A stretch of 64,000 bases of DNA from a virus. Positions 4,542 to 43,963 of this stretch are shown piece by piece. How positions within the stretch are numbered: position 1 is the first letter of the stretch; each line of letters opens with the position of its first letter. The position numbers were made by a program, and so were the translations under genes. The notes below the pieces were generated by a model. The model was not told the origin of the DNA. It searched no databases and saw only the letters and a program-made list of their open reading frames with translations. The stretch lies in IMG/VR virus record IMGVR_UViG_3300032220_001630, positions 1-64,000 of that record. One strand, written 5' to 3'.

Positions 4542-5165
4542 ATGGCAGCAAAAAACATTCAGGAATTGGCAGAAAGCTTTATGCGGACTTCGTCAGAGAA
4601 GGATTTCGTAGAGCTTTACAAAAGAATTAAACCAGGACTTTTAAACCACTGTAAATCCATTTTGGTGGAGCAAGAAGCAGCAGAAGATGCTGTCTCAAAT
4701 ACAATGGCTAAGATCTGGACAAAAATAGCCCAGTACGATCCTCTTAGAGGAAATTTCTCAACTTGGGTTTATAATATAGCTAGGAACGAATCACTAGTTA
4801 TAAAAAAATGTGAGGATAGGTATATGCCTATCATACAAGAGATCATAAAAAATTCAGATGATAGTTCAGATGATCCGCAAATCTCTATAAATAAATTCGA
4901 AGAGGATAATTCGTTCGAGGTCACTTTCAGTAACGAGGATCAGAATGAGATGGAGGGATTATACGAGAACGTCATAGAAAAAATGAAAGGTCTTCCTGCT
5001 ATTTATAAAGATATTCTTTTCGATAGAGAAATACTAAGAATGAAATATCAGGACATAGCAGACAAGCACGGAATGAAGAAAAGAGCGATAGCAACAAGAA
5101 TAAGAAGAGCAAGATTAAAGGTGAGAGAAATGTTCCCTGGAATAAATCTTACTTTTAACGATTGA
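4542..5165 (+). CDS. ECF-like RNA polymerase sigma factor
   Basis: This 207-residue protein has the two-domain layout of ECF sigma factors. Region 2 spans about residues 20-90, with the aromatic DNA-melting segment LRGNFSTWVYNIARNES. An acidic linker follows (about 100-135), and region 4 with a helix-turn-helix is at about 150-200 (LRMKYQDIADKHGMKKRAIATRIRRARLK). It should bind host core polymerase and redirect it. It is distinct from the gp55-like sigma encoded at 11.9 kb, so the phage carries two sigma-type proteins. Position just after the dCMP deaminase and downstream of a host-type promoter box suggests early or middle expression. Its target promoters cannot be identified from this window. 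Confidence 0.8.
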   Translation: MAAKNIQELAESFMRTSSEKDFVELYKRIKPGLLNHCKSILVEQEAAEDAVSNTMAKIWTKIAQYDPLRGNFSTWVYNIARNESLVIKKCEDRYMPIIQEIIKNSDDSSDDPQISINKFEEDNSFEVTFSNEDQNEMEGLYENVIEKMKGLPAIYKDILFDREILRMKYQDIADKHGMKKRAIATRIRRARLKVREMFPGINLTFND

Positions 5166-9357: not shown

Positions 9358-11679
9358 ATGGAAAAAAATAATAGTCCGGAGATCAACAGATTAAACATGG
9401 AGACTTCCAAAAATCTTGCAGAATCTTTAAAAGAATGGGCAGGATTAGATTCTCCAAAATCACAAGTTGCTTCTTCTTTCCTTAATGGATCGACCGCTCA
9501 GATGATAAAAGAATCTAACAGTAATGAATTTTCACCTAAGCCTTTAAATAATACAATATTTAGCTTTGGTCTTATTAATACTGTTTCTGCACTAAAAAAT
9601 TCAAGTCTTAATGAATTACCAGCAGGAAAGATTATGTTGGAAAGATACGAGGGTCTTCTTCTACAGAAAGGAATCTCAGAAGCTTTCCTTATTGAAGGAT
9701 TTTTAAATGACCTTAAATCTTTCTCATGGGAATCATCAGTAACTTCTGTTCTGGAAAACGTAAATTCTATCTTCGAAAATAGAAGAAGAGAGGTAGAGGT
9801 AGTAAAAGCATATGAGACTATCAAAGTAGCACCAGGGAAAGAATTATTCTCTGATGCAACTGCACAAATGAAAGATTGGTTAGTTTCTGAGAAAAAATCC
9901 TCAGATTCACTTATCCATGGTTTAAAAAGATTTGGCTTTAATCCACTTGTTAGAAATCTAGTTAGTTTCCTCTCTATATACGAAAATAAAAATCCAAACA
10001 AATTTAATCTCGGTGTAGATAATAACGTTTGCGAAGTTTCTAATGTATATTCACCAATAATGGTTACAGAGAGCGGATCTATTTTCTTCGCTGGAGGTAA
10101 ATTCCTAAAGATTAACGAGTCTGACAATTCTATATCTGAATGCTCTATGGATGAAGTACCAGTAGATTTTCAAAATAAAGCTGGTATAATTACTGACAGA
10201 GACGTTAAGATAGATGGAAATAGAATCTCATTAAATATCGGAAATAGTAAGGTAGAGATTGTATTCGAGAACGAAGAAAAGCAAATCTATTTCGACGGTA
10301 AAAGAATCAATGAATCTGATTTACCTGCTGCAGTTAGTGTTACTACTAATAGTCTTTTAGAAAATTCAAACTATAAAGCTTCTAAAGCAGCATTTATCGC
10401 TAAAAGTGCTGATGACATCGTAGATATAGATTTCGGTAAAAAGATAAAATCTAAACTGTACGAAGGAGTAGAAGCTAACATTTTCAAATTTGCAAATAAG
10501 ATATACGTTCAAACTGTTAATCCTTCTATGAGATTAAACAAAATTTATGAGGCTAATGCTACTCAAGCTATTAGCATTATAAAGGACTTTATCAAATATG
10601 ACATCTCTGAATCTTTAACTGAATTCTTACAGGGAGAGCAAGCTTTCCTAAGTGTAATGAAAAATGATAAAGCTGAGATTGTTAAGAATATCCAAATTTT
10701 AGAAAGCGAAATTGCTAAAATTGATAGAGTAAAAACAGAAAATCCTTTGATTGCAAAATCTAAAGAACTAATCAGCTTACAAGAATCATTAGAAGGAGAA
10801 TTAGAAAATCTTAAGGATAAATGGAACCAAATAAATATCGAGATCGATAGATTTGAAAAATCAGCAAATCCAATTTCGGTTAATGAAGAAATGGGTTATC
10901 CTATAGATACTGACGTTAGAATAAAAAGAAACGGTGCTAAAGGTAAAATCGTAGGTGTTGATGGAAGTTCAAAAACATATACAATTTTATTTAAGGAAGG
11001 AAAAACTGGAGAATATTTTTTCTCTGATGTTGAAGATCTAGCAGACGAAGTTGATAATTACGACATACAAACTCCCGATTTAGATCTTGAGTTTAGTGAC
11101 GATGCTAATGAATCATTAGATCAAAATTTTTCAACTGCACCTGGTCCAAAAGGAGCTACTCACTATAACAACGTTTTTATGAATATGGTGAAAAAGCACA
11201 TGGCAGCTGCTCCTGATAAGGATGCTAAAGGAAGTGCTAAATTTATAGACGACCAGAAAAATTCTAATATGGCTAGTGTTAAAGGAGAAGGTAAAAAATC
11301 TCCAGCTACTAAAAACGCTAAAGTTAAAGGTCAAAATTTAGTTGAAGCTCCAGGAAAAAGTGCAGGAAAGGGTAAGAATTTTATAGAAGATCTAAAAGAT
11401 TCTAATCTTTCAAAAGCACCATCATCTGTTATTAAAAGTGCTTCTAAATTCATCGAGGATCTTAAGGATCACAACTTAGCTCTAAAAGAAAACCAAAAGA
11501 ATTCTCATATCGAAAAAGCTCCTAAAGCAAAAGTTGCTAAGCCTAAGAAATTCATTGAGAGAGAAGAACATGCTAACTTAGAGGAAGCTCCTGGAGATCA
11601 CAAGAAAAACGGTAAAGAGTTTGTAGAAGATCAAAAGAGAGCAAATTTATCTTCTGCTCCGAAGACAAAAAAAAAGTAA
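9358..11679 (+). CDS. Large late protein with C-terminal FIED-NL-AP repeats
   Basis: The 773-residue protein has a long helical and beta-mixed body (residues 1-510). A small beta segment resembling a KOW/SH3-type fold follows at about 520-565 (VRIKRNGAKGKIVGVDGSS...). A low-complexity tail from about 600 onward is built of imperfect units of the form KFIEDxKxxNLxxAP separated by Lys/Ala/Gly-rich spacers; four units are clear and three more are partial. The tail is strongly basic and acidic in alternation and probably unstructured. Two late promoter boxes precede it, so it is likely abundant in the particle or its assembly. The stop codon is embedded in a slippery A AAA AAG site, and an 82-codon frame continues in the -1 frame. 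Function unknown. Confidence 0.7.
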   Translation: MEKNNSPEINRLNMETSKNLAESLKEWAGLDSPKSQVASSFLNGSTAQMIKESNSNEFSPKPLNNTIFSFGLINTVSALKNSSLNELPAGKIMLERYEGLLLQKGISEAFLIEGFLNDLKSFSWESSVTSVLENVNSIFENRRREVEVVKAYETIKVAPGKELFSDATAQMKDWLVSEKKSSDSLIHGLKRFGFNPLVRNLVSFLSIYENKNPNKFNLGVDNNVCEVSNVYSPIMVTESGSIFFAGGKFLKINESDNSISECSMDEVPVDFQNKAGIITDRDVKIDGNRISLNIGNSKVEIVFENEEKQIYFDGKRINESDLPAAVSVTTNSLLENSNYKASKAAFIAKSADDIVDIDFGKKIKSKLYEGVEANIFKFANKIYVQTVNPSMRLNKIYEANATQAISIIKDFIKYDISESLTEFLQGEQAFLSVMKNDKAEIVKNIQILESEIAKIDRVKTENPLIAKSKELISLQESLEGELENLKDKWNQINIEIDRFEKSANPISVNEEMGYPIDTDVRIKRNGAKGKIVGVDGSSKTYTILFKEGKTGEYFFSDVEDLADEVDNYDIQTPDLDLEFSDDANESLDQNFSTAPGPKGATHYNNVFMNMVKKHMAAAPDKDAKGSAKFIDDQKNSNMASVKGEGKKSPATKNAKVKGQNLVEAPGKSAGKGKNFIEDLKDSNLSKAPSSVIKSASKFIEDLKDHNLALKENQKNSHIEKAPKAKVAKPKKFIEREEHANLEEAPGDHKKNGKEFVEDQKRANLSSAPKTKKK
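11239..11662 (+). repeat. Degenerate coding repeats (KFIEDxKxxNLxxAP units)
   Basis: The clearest units read KFIDDQKNSNM, NFIEDLKDSNLSKAP, KFIEDLKDHNL, KFIEREEHANLEEAP and EFVEDQKRANLSSAP. DNA identity between units is low, so these are old protein-level repeats and not a recent expansion. Confidence 0.75.
11670..11676 (+). promoter_or_regulatory. Candidate -1 frameshift site A AAA AAG
   Basis: In the zero frame the codons read ACA AAA AAA AAG TAA, so the heptamer A AAA AAG ends right before the stop. This is the slippery sequence used by dnaX. A run of nine A residues also allows polymerase slippage. An 11-bp stem-loop begins 16 bases downstream. Confidence 0.6.
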
Positions 11680-11924
11680 AAACCAATAAATTAACTGAGT
11701 CTGAGACCTCTCCTGAAGAAGGAATAGGTAACAGACTCAGTTTTATTTTAGACGATTTAAAAGATTGTCTAGGAAAATTGAAAGAATTGGAAACTTCCAG
11801 TCTAGAAAACGGTAGAATTGGAATAGACGTAATTAAGGACTCTAAGGAAAATTTGGAAAAATTAAGGATTAATTTAGAAAATCAAATAAAAAAGTTCCAA
11901 AATAATTTCCCCGACCAGTCATGA
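11676..11924 (+). CDS. Probable -1 frameshift extension, helical C-terminal domain
   Basis: The -1 frame is open from 11616 to the stop at 11922-11924 and lacks any ATG or GTG. From the slip point it encodes 82 residues with strong coiled-coil character (SFILDDLKDCLGKLKELE, then NLEKLRINLENQIKKFQ). Its stop overlaps the ATG of the gp55-like gene as ATGA, the pattern expected of a real upstream reading frame. Unless a rare start codon or the TTG at 11778 is used, it can be reached only by frameshifting or polymerase slippage at the A-run, giving a fusion of about 857 residues. The encoded domain could oligomerise a minor form of the repeat-tailed protein. Confidence 0.6.
   Translation, partial: VKTNKLTESETSPEEGIGNRLSFILDDLKDCLGKLKELETSSLENGRIGIDVIKDSKENLEKLRINLENQIKKFQNNFPDQS
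11693..11742 (+). promoter_or_regulatory. 11-bp stem-loop, frameshift stimulator or terminator
   Basis: AACTGAGTCTG (11693-11703) pairs perfectly with CAGACTCAGTT (11732-11742), with a 28-base loop. It lies 16 bases after the slippery heptamer and is followed by TTTATTTTA. Location fits a frameshift stimulator; the T-rich tail also allows a terminator reading, or both. Confidence 0.6.
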
Positions 11925-12277
11925 TCTACGTAAAAAATAAAGAGCTAAAAAGAGCTTTACTCGAAAGCAAAGAAAAAGGAGAGCTAACTAGCGAAACCGT
12001 AAAAATGTTTACTTTAATAGTAAACGGTATGTCCAAGACACATTCCTATAGAGATACAGAAGACAGAGAAGATTGCATATCTTCAGGATTAGAAGATCTA
12101 GTTAAATACTGGAACAGATACGATCCAGAAAAATCTGATAATCCCTTTGCATTTATATCCCAAATAGCACACAATGGAATGAAAAAAGGATGGAAGAAAA
12201 TTCATCCACCAAAATCAATTAAAACAATCCCTTTTTCTAGAATAGTAAGAGAAGAGAATTCAAACTATAATGTTTAA
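11921..12277 (+). CDS. gp55: Late transcription sigma factor, gp55-like
   Basis: The 118-residue protein begins IYVKNKELKRALLESKEKG, close in pattern to the T4 gp55 start (YVNNKELLQAI). It continues through MSKTHSYRDTEDREDCISSGLED and YWNRYDPEKSDNPFAFISQIAHNG, matching the gp55 region 2-like core that binds polymerase and recognises the late TATA-type box. T4 gp55 is 185 residues and ends in a sliding-clamp binding peptide (SLDFLYE). That C-terminal part is absent here, the protein ending IPFSRIVREENSNYNV. Its start is coupled to the frameshift extension upstream. It is the natural reader of the GATATATA boxes described in this annotation. Confidence 0.8.
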   Translation: MIYVKNKELKRALLESKEKGELTSETVKMFTLIVNGMSKTHSYRDTEDREDCISSGLEDLVKYWNRYDPEKSDNPFAFISQIAHNGMKKGWKKIHPPKSIKTIPFSRIVREENSNYNV

Positions 12278-12279
12278 TC

Positions 12280-12768
12280 GTGGATATAAAAAAACTCAAG
12301 CCTTCTGATAGATTTAAGTCGGGAAAGTACTTCCCTACCAATCCAGAGAAGTATGTGGGTGATATACACAATATAATTTATAGGAGTTCATGGGAAAGAA
12401 AGTTTTGTCAATATTGTGACATTAATCCAAATATAACTAAATGGAGCTCTGAACCTTGTGCTATTCCCTATTGGAGTCCAATCGATAAAAAGGAGCACAA
12501 ATATTACGTTGATTATTACATCCAGGTTAAAAAAGCAAACGACGTATTAGAAAATTGGTTTATTGAAATAAAACCTGAAAATCAATACGACCTTAAAAAA
12601 AGACCAAAAGAACCAACCGGTAATTTAACAGAAAAGAAGATAAGGTCTTACAACGAAAAATTAAAAACCTGGATAACAAATAGAGCTAAATTCGAAGCTG
12701 CAACAAGATTTGCAGAAGCTAGGGGATATAAATTTGGAGCTATAAACGAAAGCTTCATAATGAGATGA
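12280..12768 (+). CDS. gp4: Head completion nuclease, gp4-like
   Basis: The 162-residue product has the conserved opening of T4 gp4-type proteins: FPTNPEKYVGD, NIIYRSSWERKFCQYCD, WSSEPCAIPYWSPIDKKEH and YYVDYYI, followed by an EIKP motif. The late (V)DYY...(E)IKP pair fits the PD-(D/E)XK nuclease core (Asp then Glu-x-Lys). T4 gp4 is about 150 residues and acts with gp50 in finishing the packaged head before tail joining. The start is GTG two bases after the gp55-like stop, with no ATG nearby. Its last bases overlap the next ATG. Confidence 0.85.
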   Translation: MDIKKLKPSDRFKSGKYFPTNPEKYVGDIHNIIYRSSWERKFCQYCDINPNITKWSSEPCAIPYWSPIDKKEHKYYVDYYIQVKKANDVLENWFIEIKPENQYDLKKRPKEPTGNLTEKKIRSYNEKLKTWITNRAKFEAATRFAEARGYKFGAINESFIMR

Positions 12769-13355
12769 AACCCTTTAATCAATTATTCGAAGACTACAAA
12801 CTACAAGTTTCTGGACTAACCTCTTTATCAGAGGAGTCATTTATGTTTTGGTTTAAAAATTACGTTAACCAAAAATCTGAATTTAACCCAAAAGACTTCT
12901 TAACTGGAAGAGTTTATTCTTTCGAGTATAATGACAAGATTGAAAAGAATAAAAAGTTCATAAATAAAAGACCAGTAGTATTTTTTACTGGCTTTCATAG
13001 TAAGGGAGATCAAAATTATTTTAACGGAGTAGATCTTATACTAATGCCTCCAATGATAAGAATACCTTTATTTACTAGAATACAGAGCGTTTATTCATCA
13101 CAAATAGAAAATATCATAAAGATGGATAAGCAAGGAGAAAAAAGCCAAATACAATTAAAAACAGACTATGAGGTATTGAATACAATTTTCAAAGGTATTC
13201 CATTTAAAAATGCTTATAGGTTTTGGGATCTTAAAAAAATAAGGGATGTCAAAGAAATTCCTTATGAAGAATGGACTAGAATAGTATATCTACATACGAG
13301 GTCAATTGAAGGGACCCCGATAGAAGAGATATATAATAAAAATATGCAGGTTTAA
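12765..13355 (+). CDS. Conserved-type phage protein of unknown function, between gp4 and portal
   Basis: The 196-residue product contains LTGRVYSFEYNDKIEKNKKF, a RPVVFFTGF strand and GVDLILMPPMIRIPLFTRI. This follows the pattern of an uncharacterised family in marine T4-like phages (a short linear segment, a strand, then GxNLxxLPPxxR). The N-terminus (MKPFNQLFEDYKLQVSG) resembles weakly the short targeting-like motif seen on several other proteins here. It overlaps both neighbours by one to four bases. A head-completion or end-protection role would fit its position, but the sequence does not resemble T4 gp2 or gp53. Confidence 0.6.
   Translation: MKPFNQLFEDYKLQVSGLTSLSEESFMFWFKNYVNQKSEFNPKDFLTGRVYSFEYNDKIEKNKKFINKRPVVFFTGFHSKGDQNYFNGVDLILMPPMIRIPLFTRIQSVYSSQIENIIKMDKQGEKSQIQLKTDYEVLNTIFKGIPFKNAYRFWDLKKIRDVKEIPYEEWTRIVYLHTRSIEGTPIEEIYNKNMQV
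13328..13335 (+). promoter_or_regulatory. Late promoter box GATATATA inside preceding gene
   Basis: The box is in the last codons of the upstream gene and ends 19 bases before the portal ATG, at the usual late spacing. Confidence 0.5.
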
Positions 13356-14944
13356 TGGCTGGATTTACAGATGGAAATAAAACTTTTTTTAGCTCGATAA
13401 TAGACAGCGTTAGGAAAGTTGGTAGCTTCGGGATGGCCTATGGTGATCTAGTAGTAAAAAATTCACAAGCTGTCGGTGTAACAGAAGCACAATTCTTAAA
13501 GAAAGGAGGAATAAAAGATGAGGCTTTTCTTTTTGGATTAAAAAGGTCAGATACAACTACTAAGCAATACATAGCTTATTTTGATAAGGACTTCAAAAAT
13601 AAAAGACACTATGTACAGGGATTTGCACAAAATCCAGAGATAGAGTTTATATTGGATACAGTATGTGATGAAGCAATAGTCTATGACGAGAAAAATTTCT
13701 GGGCATACTTCTCTTTCATGCAGCATGATGATGTGGATGATGACGTTGCAAAAAAAGTTCAAAAAAGATATAAAGAGATTTACAATCTCTTTGGATTTAA
13801 CCAAGACATCTTAGCTTGGCACTTATTTAGAAAATTCTTAATCGAAGGTATAATATCATTCGAAATCATATTTGACAAGAAAGGGAAAAATATCATAGGA
13901 TTTAAAGAAATAGATGCGGCTTCTTTAGTACCTACAGTTGAACAGCAGCCTGATGGATCATACGTAGATATCTGGATACAGTATCCCGATAATCCATCAC
14001 TAACAAGAAAACTTTACGATTCACAATTAATCTATATAAGTTATGCTAAAGGTGGAGGAACTTCTGCAAGAATAAGCTATATTGAAAGATTGATAAGATC
14101 TTTTAACCTCTTGAGGATAATGGAGCACACTAGAATCATCTGGAACGTGATGAATTCTTCTTTCCGTATGGCAATGACAGTTCCAATCGGTACTAAATCC
14201 CCACAAAAAGCAAAGCAAACATTAGGCGAACTTATGTCTATTTATAAAGAGGACATAAGGTTAAATACAGACAGTGGAGAATTAACAGTTGATGGGAGAC
14301 CAAAAATACAATTCTTTAAGAACTATTTAATGCCTTCATCACCAAACGGAACTCCAGATATACAGCCTTTAGCTGGCGGAGGTGATGCTAGTGCATTTTC
14401 AGATACAAAAGCTTTACAATATTTCGCTAATAAACTTAGAATAGATTCAAAAGTCCCTGCAACAAGATTTGGTAGAGACGACTCTGGATCTGAAGGTACC
14501 ATTACATTCTCTGCAGATGGATTAGATCAGGAAGAAATAAGATTTGGTAAATTTATAAACAGACTTAGATCTATTTACCAGGAGATATTAATGAAACCAC
14601 TATGGGTTCAATTCTGCTTAGATTTTCCACAGCTAAAAAATGATTATATAATTAAGTCAGAATTTGGACTAGATTATGTTAAAGAAAATATGTTCCTGGA
14701 AGCTAAGGAAATGGAGGTCATGACTGCAAGAAAGGATCAGGTTATAAAAATTCTAGGTCTTAAAGATTCAGAAGGTAAATCATACTTCAGTTTAAAATTT
14801 GCTCTCGATAGATGGTTAGGAATGACCCCTCAGGATATGTTGGATAACGAAAAAGCTAAGAAAGAAGCAGCAGAGAAAAAGAAGGAAGAGGGCAAAGAGG
14901 AAAAACCTGAAGGTGAAGGTTCTGGAGAAGAATTTAAAATATAA
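13355..14944 (+). CDS. gp20: Portal vertex protein, gp20-like, copy 1
   Basis: The 529-residue protein matches the size of T4 gp20 (524) and its landmarks: IAYFDKDF, EIEFILDTVCDEAIVYDE, ISFEIIFDKKGKNIIGFKEID, an ISYIERLIRSFNLLRIMEHTRIIWNVMNSS core helix, PIGTKSPQKAKQTLGELMSIYKED, and the C-terminal LMKPLWVQFCLDFPQLKND stem/crown segment. The last 30 residues are Lys/Glu-rich. Portal dodecamers sit at one capsid vertex, nucleate the prohead and form the DNA channel and motor docking site. Three bases after its stop begins a second, clearly homologous portal gene. Confidence 0.9.
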   Translation: MAGFTDGNKTFFSSIIDSVRKVGSFGMAYGDLVVKNSQAVGVTEAQFLKKGGIKDEAFLFGLKRSDTTTKQYIAYFDKDFKNKRHYVQGFAQNPEIEFILDTVCDEAIVYDEKNFWAYFSFMQHDDVDDDVAKKVQKRYKEIYNLFGFNQDILAWHLFRKFLIEGIISFEIIFDKKGKNIIGFKEIDAASLVPTVEQQPDGSYVDIWIQYPDNPSLTRKLYDSQLIYISYAKGGGTSARISYIERLIRSFNLLRIMEHTRIIWNVMNSSFRMAMTVPIGTKSPQKAKQTLGELMSIYKEDIRLNTDSGELTVDGRPKIQFFKNYLMPSSPNGTPDIQPLAGGGDASAFSDTKALQYFANKLRIDSKVPATRFGRDDSGSEGTITFSADGLDQEEIRFGKFINRLRSIYQEILMKPLWVQFCLDFPQLKNDYIIKSEFGLDYVKENMFLEAKEMEVMTARKDQVIKILGLKDSEGKSYFSLKFALDRWLGMTPQDMLDNEKAKKEAAEKKKEEGKEEKPEGEGSGEEFKI

Positions 14945-14947
14945 AAA

Positions 14948-16621
14948 ATGGCAGGATTCGTAGACAATTTACAAAAATTAAATCCCAATTTATCAAGAAT
15001 AATAAAGTCAATTAGCGGGCTTGGATCTTTTGGTATGGAGTACAAAGACATGGTCATTGAAGATTCCATGGCAATAGGTATTTCTGAAGCTAACCTAAGA
15101 GAAAGATTTGGCTACGGAGCAGACGACGAGGACTTTATTTACAGCATAGCTGCACAGGATTCTTCAAATAGAAAATATATTGCATATTTTGATAAGGATT
15201 ATCCAGTAAGAAGGGATTTTTTAAGAACGTTTGCACTTAATGCAGAGATAGAATACGTTTTAGATACTTTATGTGACGAAGGAATAGTTTATGACGAGAA
15301 AAATTTCTTTTGTCATCCCGCAACTATGAACATGGATCTTAAAGACGATGTTATGAAATCTTTAAGAGGTAACTTTAGAAAGCTTTATGTCCTTCACAAC
15401 TTCACAAACGGATTAACTGCTTGGCAATACTTTAGACAGCTTTTAGTTGATGGATTTTTAGCATTTGAAATAATTTATTCTAGTGACGGCAAAAATATAG
15501 TAGGATTCAAGGAATTAGATGCTACTAGTCTTACTCCTGCAGTAGAAAGAAAAGCTGACGGATCTAGAGAATCCCTTTGGTGGCAATATTACGGAGATAC
15601 AACTAGACAAAGAAAACTTTTAGATGCTCAAGTAATCTATATCTCCTATGCTAAAGCTAATACTGCAGCTAGAACTTCTTATTGTGAAAGATTAGTTAGA
15701 TCTTATAACCTTCTTAAAATAATGGAGCATTCCAGAATAATATGGAATGTAATGAATTCACAGTACAGAATAAAAATGACTGTACCAATTGGAAGTAAAT
15801 CTCCGCAAAAGGCTAAAGAAACTTTAGGCGAACTTATGTCCGTATACAAAGAGGATATAAAACTTGATACTTCATCAGGAGAACTTGCAATTAACGGAAG
15901 ACCAGATTTACAATTCTATAAAAACTATCTTTTCCCACAAAGCGGCGGTGAATCAACTAAAGTTGAGACTATAAACGCTCAAGGACCAAATCTGAATATT
16001 ATGGATTCGGTAGTTTATTTCTATAATAAATTAAGACAGGATTCTAAAATACCATATAATAGATTTTCTGCAAGATGGGGTTCAGGTAGTGCTGCAGCTT
16101 ATAAAATTCCAGCAGACGGATCAGAAAGAGACGAAGTTAGATTTGCAAAATTTATAACACGTCTAAGATCTATTTTCCAAGAAATAGTAGTAAAGCCTCT
16201 ATGGATACAAATGTGTTTAGATTTTCCACATTTAAAAAATGATTCTGAATTTAGAAGCCAAATTGGGGTTAAATTTGAGAGCGATAATACTTTTGGAGAA
16301 TCAAGAGAGATAGAGCAGCTTTTAAAACATATAGACTTCATAAATTCCTTAGGTGAAATAAAAGAAACAGTTAATGACGAAGAAGTTCAATTCTTCAATC
16401 AAGACTTCCTTATAGAAAGATGGTCAGGATTGCCATATGAAGATATAATGGCAAATAAAAAATATAAGGAAAAAGAAAAAGGTGAAGCTGCACCAGCAGA
16501 AGCTCCTGCTTCTGAAGAGACCCCAGCTGAAGAGACACCTGCTGAAACACCAGCAGAAGAAACACCAGCTGAGACCCCTGCTGAGACATCAGAGGAGGGA
16601 GGAGAAGAAACTACAACCTAA
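14948..16621 (+). CDS. gp20: Portal vertex protein, gp20-like, copy 2
   Basis: The 557-residue protein is a full-length paralogue of the preceding portal. Shared blocks run throughout, including GSFGMEYKDMVIEDSMAIGIS, IAYFDKDYPVRRDFLR, EIEYVLDTLCDEGIVYDEKNF, YCERLVRSYNLLKIMEHSRI, PIGSKSPQKAKETLGELMS and KPLWIQMCLDFPHLKND. No core segment is missing and no frame is broken, so both copies look functional. Differences concentrate in the region after DLQFYKNYLFPQ and in the C-terminus, where this copy has a Pro/Ala/Glu/Thr-rich tail of about 45 residues. The two could form a mixed ring, serve different vertices, or one could have a new function. Confidence 0.88.
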   Translation: MAGFVDNLQKLNPNLSRIIKSISGLGSFGMEYKDMVIEDSMAIGISEANLRERFGYGADDEDFIYSIAAQDSSNRKYIAYFDKDYPVRRDFLRTFALNAEIEYVLDTLCDEGIVYDEKNFFCHPATMNMDLKDDVMKSLRGNFRKLYVLHNFTNGLTAWQYFRQLLVDGFLAFEIIYSSDGKNIVGFKELDATSLTPAVERKADGSRESLWWQYYGDTTRQRKLLDAQVIYISYAKANTAARTSYCERLVRSYNLLKIMEHSRIIWNVMNSQYRIKMTVPIGSKSPQKAKETLGELMSVYKEDIKLDTSSGELAINGRPDLQFYKNYLFPQSGGESTKVETINAQGPNLNIMDSVVYFYNKLRQDSKIPYNRFSARWGSGSAAAYKIPADGSERDEVRFAKFITRLRSIFQEIVVKPLWIQMCLDFPHLKNDSEFRSQIGVKFESDNTFGESREIEQLLKHIDFINSLGEIKETVNDEEVQFFNQDFLIERWSGLPYEDIMANKKYKEKEKGEAAPAEAPASEETPAEETPAETPAEETPAETPAETSEEGGEETTT

Positions 16622-41086: not shown

Positions 41087-42502
41087 ATGTGTGGAATTTT
41101 AGTAGCTATTAACCCGACAAAGGAAAGGATAGAATCTATATCTCATAGAGGAATAGAACATTCTATTGTAAACGATCAAAATCTATATCTAGTTCATCAC
41201 AGGCTTCCAATACAAACAGTGGATGGTGATAGCTGGTCACAGCCTATACAAATTGGCGAAAATAGGTGGCTGTTATTTAATGGCGAGATTTTCAATTATA
41301 GTGGCGGATTCGATTCGGATACAGCATACCTTCAAAATCTATTTAGTAGTTTTAATTTTAGTGGTATTGACATGCTACAAGCTATATACGAACCCCATAT
41401 AGTTTCATGGGATGGGTTTTGGGCAATAGTTATGGTAGACACCAAAGAGAAAGAAATATATGCTTTTACTGATCCTTTGGGCAAAAAGGTTTTATACAAG
41501 AACGATCTTGGCGAAATCTGCTCAGAAATAAAAGGATTATTTGAAAAGGACAATGAACCCGCACCAGATCCATCATTCTTCAGTGGTGTTATAAAGTGGG
41601 GATATTTAACCACCGATCAGACACCTTATGAAGGCATAAAAAAACTACAACCTAATAGATTTTATAAATGGAATCTCTATAACCCATCAAAAATGGAAGT
41701 ATCTGATCCATATTATAATTTTTACTCTTTTGAGGCAGGATTAGAAACATATGAAGATAGAATGGATTGGTTATGGAATAAACTTGAAAATTCAGTAGAA
41801 TCAAGATTGATCTCTAAAAACTACCCGACATCTCTTCTGTTATCAGGGGGTTTAGATTCTGCCATTATTGCAGGTCTTCTTCTTAAACTCGGAGCAGATG
41901 TTCAGTTTTATTCTATATCCAACGGTGAAGATGAGCAATACGTAAAAGCATGTGAGGAATATTGGGGTGTTAAATCTATAAGATTAGATTACGATGTTGA
42001 CATAGAAAGCGAAGAGGGTAAGAATAAAACACTAGAAATATATCAGAAATGGAATGAATCACCCATAGATATGGGAAGTGTTCTACCTCAATATCATTTA
42101 TTTGATGCAATAAAAAAAGGATCTAAAACCAGGATAGTTATTTCAGGAGATGGAGCTGATGAATTATTTGGAGGATATAGGAGAATTAATGAATACGATT
42201 CACAAGATTCAGACATCTTTCACGAATTAACTTCATACCATCTACCAAGATTGGACAAGTTATCAATGGCACACACCTTGGAGCTTAGAAGTCCTTTTTT
42301 AAATCACGACATAGTAAGATTTGCTTTAACACTTCCTTTTGAAGAGAGAAAGAATAAAAAAATATTGAAGGATACTTTTAAAGGATTAGTTCCAGATTCA
42401 GTAATTGAAAGAAAAAAATTGCCTCTTAAAAATCAGATGATTGTAGAGGATCAAATTTCTTACAGAAAAAAGATAAAGGATTTATATCTTAAATCCATTT
42501 GA
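41087..42502 (+). CDS. asnB: Asparagine synthetase B-like, glutamine-hydrolysing
   Basis: The 471-residue enzyme begins MCGIL, giving Cys2 as the class II glutamine amidotransferase nucleophile. RGIEH, VHHRL and LLFNGEIFN follow in the glutaminase domain. The synthetase domain has the SGGLDSA pyrophosphatase loop and ISGDGADELFGGYRR. Bacterial AsnB is about 550 residues, so the C-terminal part is shorter, but all visible motifs are intact. It would make asparagine, or amidate another carboxylate, at the expense of glutamine and ATP. Its 3' end overlaps by 21 bases the end of a convergent minus-strand ATP-grasp gene. Confidence 0.9.
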   Translation: MCGILVAINPTKERIESISHRGIEHSIVNDQNLYLVHHRLPIQTVDGDSWSQPIQIGENRWLLFNGEIFNYSGGFDSDTAYLQNLFSSFNFSGIDMLQAIYEPHIVSWDGFWAIVMVDTKEKEIYAFTDPLGKKVLYKNDLGEICSEIKGLFEKDNEPAPDPSFFSGVIKWGYLTTDQTPYEGIKKLQPNRFYKWNLYNPSKMEVSDPYYNFYSFEAGLETYEDRMDWLWNKLENSVESRLISKNYPTSLLLSGGLDSAIIAGLLLKLGADVQFYSISNGEDEQYVKACEEYWGVKSIRLDYDVDIESEEGKNKTLEIYQKWNESPIDMGSVLPQYHLFDAIKKGSKTRIVISGDGADELFGGYRRINEYDSQDSDIFHELTSYHLPRLDKLSMAHTLELRSPFLNHDIVRFALTLPFEERKNKKILKDTFKGLVPDSVIERKKLPLKNQMIVEDQISYRKKIKDLYLKSI

Positions 42503-43963
42503 TAAAACTACCTCCACACCCGCAACAGGATCCCCTTTTGCGTCTTTTGGAGAATATCCGTCTGGTCTATCTGTTAATACGAAATCCTCTGAAGGATCTA
42601 CTATTAAACCTGCGGAGCTTAGAAAATCTCTATTTAATAAAAGAGGTGTGCTTTTTTCAGTTCTATCTACTAGTGAAAACTTTACTTTCTTGTAAAGAAT
42701 ACCATTGAATTCAACATCAAGATTAACAACCGCTCTGTGGTGGATTTTTTCACCAACCTCAGCTTTAGATTGTCCTACGATTTTATTTACAAATTGCTGA
42801 TTACCTAAAGTCCATACCACTTCTCCGTCTTTTTCTTCGATAGTATCTGCGTGTAACGAACAAGACGTAGCACCATTACCAGTATCTAATTTTCCTACAA
42901 ACGTACCAACTCCAGAGATAGATATCAATTCTCTAAATCCTGTTACTTTCTTAGGCTTAACCCAGTTTTTTCTATCAATTAAGAAATCTACTACAATATC
43001 TGTTACTGGTATACCGGTTGTTTTTTCTATCCCCGTAGTTCCAGGAGATGCGTTAACTTCTAATACGTATGGGTTTTCTGTTCCTTTATCAACAATTATA
43101 TCAACTCCACACCATAGACAACCTGTAGCTTTAGCAGATTCAATAGCTATTTTTTCTATCGATTCTGGTAGCTCTACTGTTTCAGTGTCACCACCGAGTG
43201 AGAAGTTAGTTCTAAAATCGCCTTTAATCTTAATTCTTTTCATCGCTGCGATGACTTTGTACTCTCTTCCAGACATACCATCAGATTCAGCAATTACGTG
43301 AATTCTTAAGTCATATTCAGCTTCGATTTTTTCTTGTAAAACTATCTCAGTTCCTGGTGCTAAATGCCATAAAGCTTGAAGAGTAGAAACTAATGATGGT
43401 CTCGAATCAATCATGAATACTCCTATACCTTTAGTTCCTGAAAGAAACTTACATACTACAGGGTATTTTCCACCAACATCTTCAACAGCCTTATCTATAT
43501 CTGCCTCAGAAGATATTAAAGATGTTTTAGGTACGGGGATATTATTTAATTGAAGCTTTCTTGTTGTTTGTAATTTATCCTCACATATGATAACAGAATC
43601 ATAAGAGTTAACACAAGGAAAACCTAAATCTTCCATTTTCTTAAAGAATCCCTTAGCAGCATTATTTTTTATGGAAGATCTTCTAGTTAGAACTATTGTA
43701 CGATCAAGATAAATTTCTTGCTGTTTATCTCCTCTACTAGATATAAGATATGTTCCTTTTGGTGTTTTTTGAATAGATCCTTTTTCTGTATCTACTATAA
43801 TACATTTTAAACCTTTCTCCTCACATATCTTCATTATTTTGTCAGTGGTTGGAGCATTCTTTAGGGTCTTACCTAATTTAGTGGTTAGCACAACTACTGT
43901 TAAGGGTCTTTCTTTTCCTTTTACCCCTTTGAATATAAATTTTTCTAGCAATGGATTATCCAT
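42482..43963 (-). CDS. RimK-like ATP-grasp ligase fused to retropepsin-like domain
   Basis: Residues 1-335 form a RimK-type ATP-grasp enzyme: VVCKFLSGTKGIGVF (ATP loop), YDLRIHVIAE, FRTNFSLGG, and GVDIIVDKGTENPYVLEVNASPGTTGIEKTTG with the Mg-binding Glu and Asn. From about 345 a second domain begins with GTFVGKLDTGNGATSCSLHA, the DTGxxxS motif of the ATP-dependent protease / retropepsin-like family (DUF785), and ends with LVDRTEKSTPLLLNRDFL. RimK adds glutamates to the C-terminus of ribosomal protein S6. Encoding ligase and peptidase together suggests writing and trimming of amino-acid tails on a host or phage protein. It has its own late-type promoter. Confidence 0.85.
   Translation of the reverse strand: MDNPLLEKFIFKGVKGKERPLTVVVLTTKLGKTLKNAPTTDKIMKICEEKGLKCIIVDTEKGSIQKTPKGTYLISSRGDKQQEIYLDRTIVLTRRSSIKNNAAKGFFKKMEDLGFPCVNSYDSVIICEDKLQTTRKLQLNNIPVPKTSLISSEADIDKAVEDVGGKYPVVCKFLSGTKGIGVFMIDSRPSLVSTLQALWHLAPGTEIVLQEKIEAEYDLRIHVIAESDGMSGREYKVIAAMKRIKIKGDFRTNFSLGGDTETVELPESIEKIAIESAKATGCLWCGVDIIVDKGTENPYVLEVNASPGTTGIEKTTGIPVTDIVVDFLIDRKNWVKPKKVTGFRELISISGVGTFVGKLDTGNGATSCSLHADTIEEKDGEVVWTLGNQQFVNKIVGQSKAEVGEKIHHRAVVNLDVEFNGILYKKVKFSLVDRTEKSTPLLLNRDFLSSAGLIVDPSEDFVLTDRPDGYSPKDAKGDPVAGVEVVLSNGFKI

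Follow-up and report, generated by a model that had tools for sequence, protein, structure and literature searches.

The locus and its genes

The window, by which we mean the whole 64,000-nucleotide stretch of viral DNA analysed here (IMG/VR record IMGVR_UViG_3300032220_001630, positions 1 to 64,000), comes from a virus record of 103 kb. It contains a gene for a 773-residue protein, referred to below as the main protein, followed by a gp55-like late sigma factor gene and a head closure gene (Table 1). In addition to its PHROG match the sigma gene matched Pfam Sigma70_r2 (E 1.8e-6, above its cut-off) and, by tblastn, annotated late sigma factors. The genes after it match the families of T4-type head closure, DNA end protector and portal proteins, which places the locus among the head genes of a large T4-like phage. 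The portal family is represented by tandem genes (13355-14944 and 14948-16621, both phrog_213, E 1.6e-56 and 1.5e-57). A second sigma-factor-like gene (4542-5165, phrog_1740, E 9.5e-23) was found ~7 kb upstream of the gp55-like gene, and GATATATAA-like motifs lie closely upstream of several gene starts (about 2020, 7035, 28684, 32065, 38180 and 45810), and could be the late promoter that the gp55-like sigma factor recognises. On the minus strand, 42482-43963 matched the ribosomal protein S6 glutaminyl transferase family (phrog_2599, E 4.9e-18) and is a possible host-takeover gene.

Table 1. Features of the main gene and sigma factor gene region; positions are those of the window unless a locus is named.
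Feature	Position	Strand	Basis
Main gene, 773 aa	9358..11679	+	ORF; AlphaFold2 model with 24 relatives; structure matches
Lys-rich repeat tail of KxFIEDLKxxNLxxAP-like units, ending KKK at the slip site	11158..11676	+	Alignment
A9 run, proposed RNA polymerase slippage site	11667..11675	+	Sequence; kept in extension-bearing relatives
A AAA AAG heptamer, rival ribosomal -1 slip site	11670..11676	+	Sequence, in frame (X XXY YYZ)
-1 frame extension, predicted two-helix hairpin protein without its own start codon	11676..11924	+	82 codons plus TGA
Conserved hairpin within the extension frame, best read as a terminator stem-loop	11693..11742	+	Folding
Extension helix 1, residues 17-44	11724..11807	+	AlphaFold2, pLDDT ~90
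T tract TTTTATTTT 3' of the hairpin	11741..11749	+	Sequence
Extension helix 2, residues 50-76	11823..11903	+	AlphaFold2, pLDDT ~90 through residue 70
gp55-like late sigma factor gene, start overlapping the extension stop	11921..12277	+	phrog_234, E 2.4e-16
Head completion/closure protein gene, T4 gp4-like	12280..12768	+	phrog_218, E 3.9e-45
A9 runs of the distant clade	L085 5343; L147 5661; L148 5658; L150 5733; L154 5664		

A Shine-Dalgarno 4-mer preceded none of the 54 gene starts on the plus strand of the window, against 17.5% expected at random positions, and 53% of the bases preceding these starts were A. Starts of this kind, lacking a Shine-Dalgarno sequence and having A-rich leaders, are usual for Bacteroidota and their phages. 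The same trait was noted in freshwater Bacteroidetes phages (PMC9723584), and the hosts of this uncultured virus family are probably Bacteroidota.

The main protein belonged to no Pfam or PHROG family, had no credible relative in a PDB sequence search and no relative among the genome contigs searched. Its AlphaFold2 model, of moderate overall confidence (pTM 0.37), is helical in its N-terminal half and beta-rich in the middle; a coiled-coil hairpin (aa 427-502) and a Tudor/KOW-like domain (~aa 511-567) come next, followed by the repeat tail, which has low pLDDT and is predicted to be disordered. Searched with Foldseek against BFVD, the fold matched uncharacterised phage proteins (E 3e-17 to 4e-24), including A0A5S9HXP5 of Tenacibaculum phage PTm1 and a protein of LR756500; the LR756500 gene also adjoins a gp55-like gene, but it has neither the A run nor the extension described below. 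TnpB-type genes lie near the main-gene/sigma region of LR756500 (L087 3984-5240; C-terminal CxxC motifs recognised by eye) and of Chryseobacterium phage MA9V-2 (L161 723-1889, annotated). VIA-align matched the model to SMC/Rad50 coiled coils (Z ~10) and to Tudor/NusG-KOW domains (Z ~8), matches that are confined to residues 425-567 and concern the fold, giving no indication of function. The first-pass annotation had suggested a particle protein, which we do not adopt because no relative of known function was found; a head role is plausible from gene order, and a head- or DNA-related role may be guessed from the gene neighbours and the Tudor/KOW-like domain.

An open -1 frame behind nine adenines

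The main gene ends with the zero-frame codons ACA AAA AAA AAG TAA (11665-11679), in which the nine As form the sole run of at least nine As in the 64 kb window. The slippery heptamer that the first-pass annotation had placed on the stop is there as described, with TAA directly after it, as are the open -1 frame of 82 codons devoid of ATG and GTG and the overlap of its stop with the next gene. Free of stops from 11616 onwards, this frame closes with a TGA (11922-11924), its 82 codons being counted from 11676; the TGA overlaps the sigma gene ATG at 11921 as ATGA.

The extension evolves as a protein. Relatives encode extensions 50-80% identical to that of the window, with a shared core (...GxGNRLxFxLDDLKxCLxKIKELETSSxENGKIGI...NLExL...QIxKLQNN); substitutions at -1 frame codon positions 1, 2 and 3 amounted to 0.22, 0.14 and 0.32 respectively, and the median dN/dS was 0.29, indicating purifying selection. 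A profile search found the extension in 59 viral contigs, and in all of those with upstream sequence that were examined it lay 3' of the main gene and the A run. No credible relative was found in Pfam or PDB sequence searches, nor any match in the phage collection. AlphaFold2 predicted two antiparallel helices preceded by a flexible lead, and so not obviously the multimerising coiled coil proposed from composition; ferritin/Dps-type helix pairs came up in Foldseek only at E 0.26 or worse and were rejected as relatives, the arrangement being merely common.

Translation of the extension from a start of its own, as a separate small protein made from an internal non-AUG codon or by re-initiation past the main stop, was considered, given that TTG codons exist in the frame and that leaderless or Shine-Dalgarno-less starts are normal in Bacteroidota. 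The only candidate starts in the window extension are three TTG codons (residues 35, 38 and 60). No relative sequence examined has a -1 frame start codon upstream of the A run, and no early start within the extension is conserved, the sole conserved position being a TTG close to the domain's end (residue 60-61), whilst conservation of the protein begins ahead of it (residues 8-9 and 15-29). A separate protein would also leave the A9 run, and its joint loss with the extension (see below), unexplained, and we regard this origin as very improbable. Because the extension shows protein-like evolution, has no conserved start of its own and lies behind the A run wherever the upstream sequence was examined, the domain is most simply reached by frameshifting at or near that run, and the longer form of the main protein proposed in the first-pass annotation gains support from its conservation in relatives.

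Conservation of the run and its loss together with the extension

Relatives were gathered from IMG/VR using the main protein and the head-closure protein as queries, and the comparison set consisted of loci holding both the main-gene end and the sigma gene. The A run, the adjacent stop and the open -1 frame were present in 35 distinct sequences including the window and in one found later (L142), their main proteins being 40-75% identical; these 36 sequences are related, hence the counts given here are not independent events. The -1 frame is 80-84 codons long in all 36, its end falling on the sigma start codon or beside it. Every one of them retained the run, as A9 in 35 and as A10 in one, and the base ending the heptamer was G in 34 of the 36, with AAC in L013 and AAA in L060 where AAG is expected. 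The codon preceding KKK ended in A throughout (22 ACA, 10 TCA, 3 GCA and 1 AGA), whilst only 26%, 39% and 41% of Ser, Thr and Ala codons respectively do so in the rest of the main gene. The first two Lys codons of KKK were both AAA in 36/36, against 1638 AAA and 468 AAG elsewhere in the gene.

Nine-base homopolymers are error-prone, and the arrangement could in principle reflect an assembly error, or a decaying gene in which the frames are really continuous. Related phages do have the -1 frame, and dozens of independent assemblies show the A9 again, so that neither objection foreseen in the first-pass annotation holds; an identical frame and a near-uniform run length in 36 distinct sequences from many metagenomes, together with purifying selection on the extension, argue against such an artefact, and decayed versions of the locus (L055 and L070) look quite different. 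Chance or sequencing error is very unlikely to be the source of the pattern, and error or decay, to which we give almost no credence, is refuted for the clade as a whole by these comparisons.

L055 and L070 have no A9 and their -1 frame is closed, yet degraded extension DNA is still recognisable before the sigma gene (local alignment scores of 50 and 42 respectively, against shuffle maxima of 36). In the main-protein tree both are nested within the extension-bearing clade, the divergent extension-bearing L003 falling outside L070 at a fork with support of only 80%. The simplest history would be two independent losses, in each of which the run and the frame went together. In the Lak phages and LR756504, which have the sigma gene, no A9 slip site was found near it. 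Comparison among the relatives establishes that the A run is conserved, that the -1 frame codes for protein and that A9 and extension were lost together.

A terminator-like hairpin within the extension

The 11-bp stem-loop reported in the first pass as beginning 16 bases downstream is real. Its stem starts at 11693, 16 nt past the heptamer, and has inner pairs in addition to 11 outer ones (-27 kcal/mol, z = -5.8 relative to shuffled sequences). A hairpin was found in every extension-bearing sequence examined, and L003 retains one by individual folding although its stem sequence is wholly different. Covariation in RNAalifold was weak, with one pair changed on both sides, because most stems are near-identical and L003 was misaligned there; the case for conservation is based on the individual folds. 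No Rfam match was obtained, and the hairpin, whose long loop is bulged, was for that reason missed by a simple terminator scan.

Relatives without the extension (L055, L070, L072, L074, L085, L147, L148 and L154) also have a hairpin with a T run after the main stop, which in L055 and L070 is now a cleaner terminator; none was seen after the main gene in L150 and LR756500. Because of its T tract, a feature absent from the first-pass annotation, and because it has counterparts where there is neither slip site nor extension, the hairpin is best read as an intrinsic (Rho-independent) terminator between the main and sigma genes over which the extension frame is laid, its terminator-like character being established by the same comparison. 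A main role as a frameshift stimulator was rejected: heptamer sites typically have a stimulatory structure 5-9 nt downstream (PMC5009743), whereas the stem here starts at least 16 nt downstream in most sequences (weak A-U pairing reaches to ~11 nt in a few relatives), is followed by a U tract in the RNA and occurs without the slip site.

Slippage by the polymerase or by the ribosome

The same peptide, T-K-K-K-V-K, is predicted whether RNA polymerase slips in the run (one A gained or two As lost) or the ribosome slips at A AAA AAG. Programmed -1 ribosomal frameshifting of the dnaX type, with tandem lysyl-tRNA re-pairing, would yield the same long protein and was the first choice in the first-pass annotation. 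It draws on the E. coli dnaX-type heptamer in 34/36 sequences, on the two overlapping slippery heptamers that A9 holds, on the stable conserved hairpin downstream and on the stop directly after the heptamer, which can favour slippage.

Four features point the other way. The whole A9 is invariant, whilst the heptamer needs neither of the two extra As outside it. The base after the run, which is important for ribosomal slipping, is altered in L013 and L060. Runs of eight or more As are depleted elsewhere, as detailed below. The usual stimulators of ribosomal slippage are also missing: no conserved Shine-Dalgarno or purine motif was found upstream of the A run, in keeping with gene starts in the window that use none, and the hairpin lies too far downstream in most sequences and persists with its T run where the slip site is absent.

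The depletion was assessed by shuffling synonymous codons. The window has 7 runs of A8 or longer where ~18 were expected, and across 15 divergent loci there were 17 A8 runs against 37 in the shuffles and no runs of A10 or longer against 7. In these loci 14 of the 18 A9 runs were the two slip sites, namely the one described above and the one of the distant clade described below. Depletion was the criterion used by Baranov et al. 2005, who placed the threshold at nine As for many genomes and cautioned that long A runs could equally be depleted by replication slippage (PMC1088944), an alternative cause that can also apply here.

Taken on these four grounds, RNA polymerase slippage at A9, which had been the secondary idea of the first-pass annotation, is probably what produces the longer form, whereas ribosomal frameshifting at the heptamer is a possible but rather less plausible origin. 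Which machine slips is our inference, and so are the proportions in which the short and long forms arise and any influence on the sigma gene.

Another A9 site in distant relatives

A distant clade (L085, L147, L148/149, L150 and L154/155), whose proteins are ~20% identical to that of the window, has in the same gene the sole A9 of each 8.6-12.5 kb locus, placed earlier, just before the Tudor/KOW-like domain, in the context GAA AAA AAA A(CT/GT/CA). There the zero frame gives the full protein, and one A gained or lost brings a stop one to six codons on. In five of these loci the EKK-type contexts were compared, and A9 occurred at 5/5 of the sites before the Tudor/KOW-like domain and at 0/11 others. 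In a single contig, L076, the phase of the A9 (5290) is reversed and the Tudor/KOW-like domain is encoded by the -1 frame; this may be an assembly error. These observations suggest that the main-gene family uses A9 in both ways, lengthening the protein in the window clade and truncating it in the distant clade, the latter case being the weaker of the two.

Comparison with known systems

Homopolymer slippage that gives a C-terminal extension, as proposed for the window gene, is described for Shigella spa13 (112 aa) and mxiE, and in the spa13/spa32 pair the end of the extension overlaps the next gene, which slippage affects (PMC5009743); those are bacterial secretion genes without homology to the phage gene, which in contrast has a putative terminator inside its extension. 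Exactly nine As yield two forms from one gene in Thermus thermophilus dnaX, where, as in the distant clade, either slip leads to a stop within a few codons (PMC1088944); the proteins are unrelated, and in the window clade slippage would lengthen and not truncate. A comparable arrangement of the stop is that of Citrobacter rodentium tssM, in which an A run just before the stop adds a C-terminal domain upon slippage and both forms are required, but the run is A11, in one bacterial gene encoding an unrelated protein (PMC4256274). With the -1 frameshift of E. coli dnaX the locus shares the A AAA AAG heptamer and a downstream hairpin; it differs in having no Shine-Dalgarno stimulator, a hairpin that is too far away and terminator-like, an A9 conserved beyond the heptamer, and the opposite outcome, extension.

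A proposed course of events and its meaning

We propose that in most transcripts the nine As would be copied without error, yielding the 773-residue form with its ...TKKK end, whilst in a fraction RNA polymerase would slip in A9, gaining one A or losing two. On these slipped messages ribosomes would read T-K-K-K-V-K and on into the -1 frame, adding 82 residues that are predicted to form the two-helix hairpin domain. The long frame crosses the putative intrinsic terminator past the main stop and continues as far as the late sigma start codon, on which it ends. Because this frame passes through the terminator, the long form could come only from transcripts that read through it, and ribosomes making it would finish where the sigma gene starts. 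As a whole, this reading, in which 9358-11679 gives rise to two proteins through polymerase slippage at A9, is fairly likely on the comparative evidence.

A small number of bacterial genes and insertion sequences are known to use slippage at A runs productively. We found no published report of it in a tailed phage in a limited literature search, and this is apparently an unreported case of a known trick, with an 82-residue domain that has been overlooked by gene callers in every genome. The slippage signature is conserved over a wide clade of environmental phages, and slippage would operate in both directions within one gene family.

A further idea, to which we assign a low likelihood, is that the slip site acts as a switch controlling the late sigma gene. 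Ribosomes on A9 messages would stop 13 nt before the hairpin, which would then form and end transcription; on slipped messages the following ribosome would cross the hairpin, block termination and arrive on the overlapping sigma start. That L055 and L070 keep the sigma gene without any extension speaks against an essential role for the extension. If the switch did exist, polymerase slippage in one gene would govern both transcription and translation of the late-transcription regulator, with the long protein being a coupled by-product of sigma control or a partner in it. With a -1 frame overlying a putative terminator beside a late sigma gene, these phages allow a direct test of whether slippage, termination and late transcription are linked.
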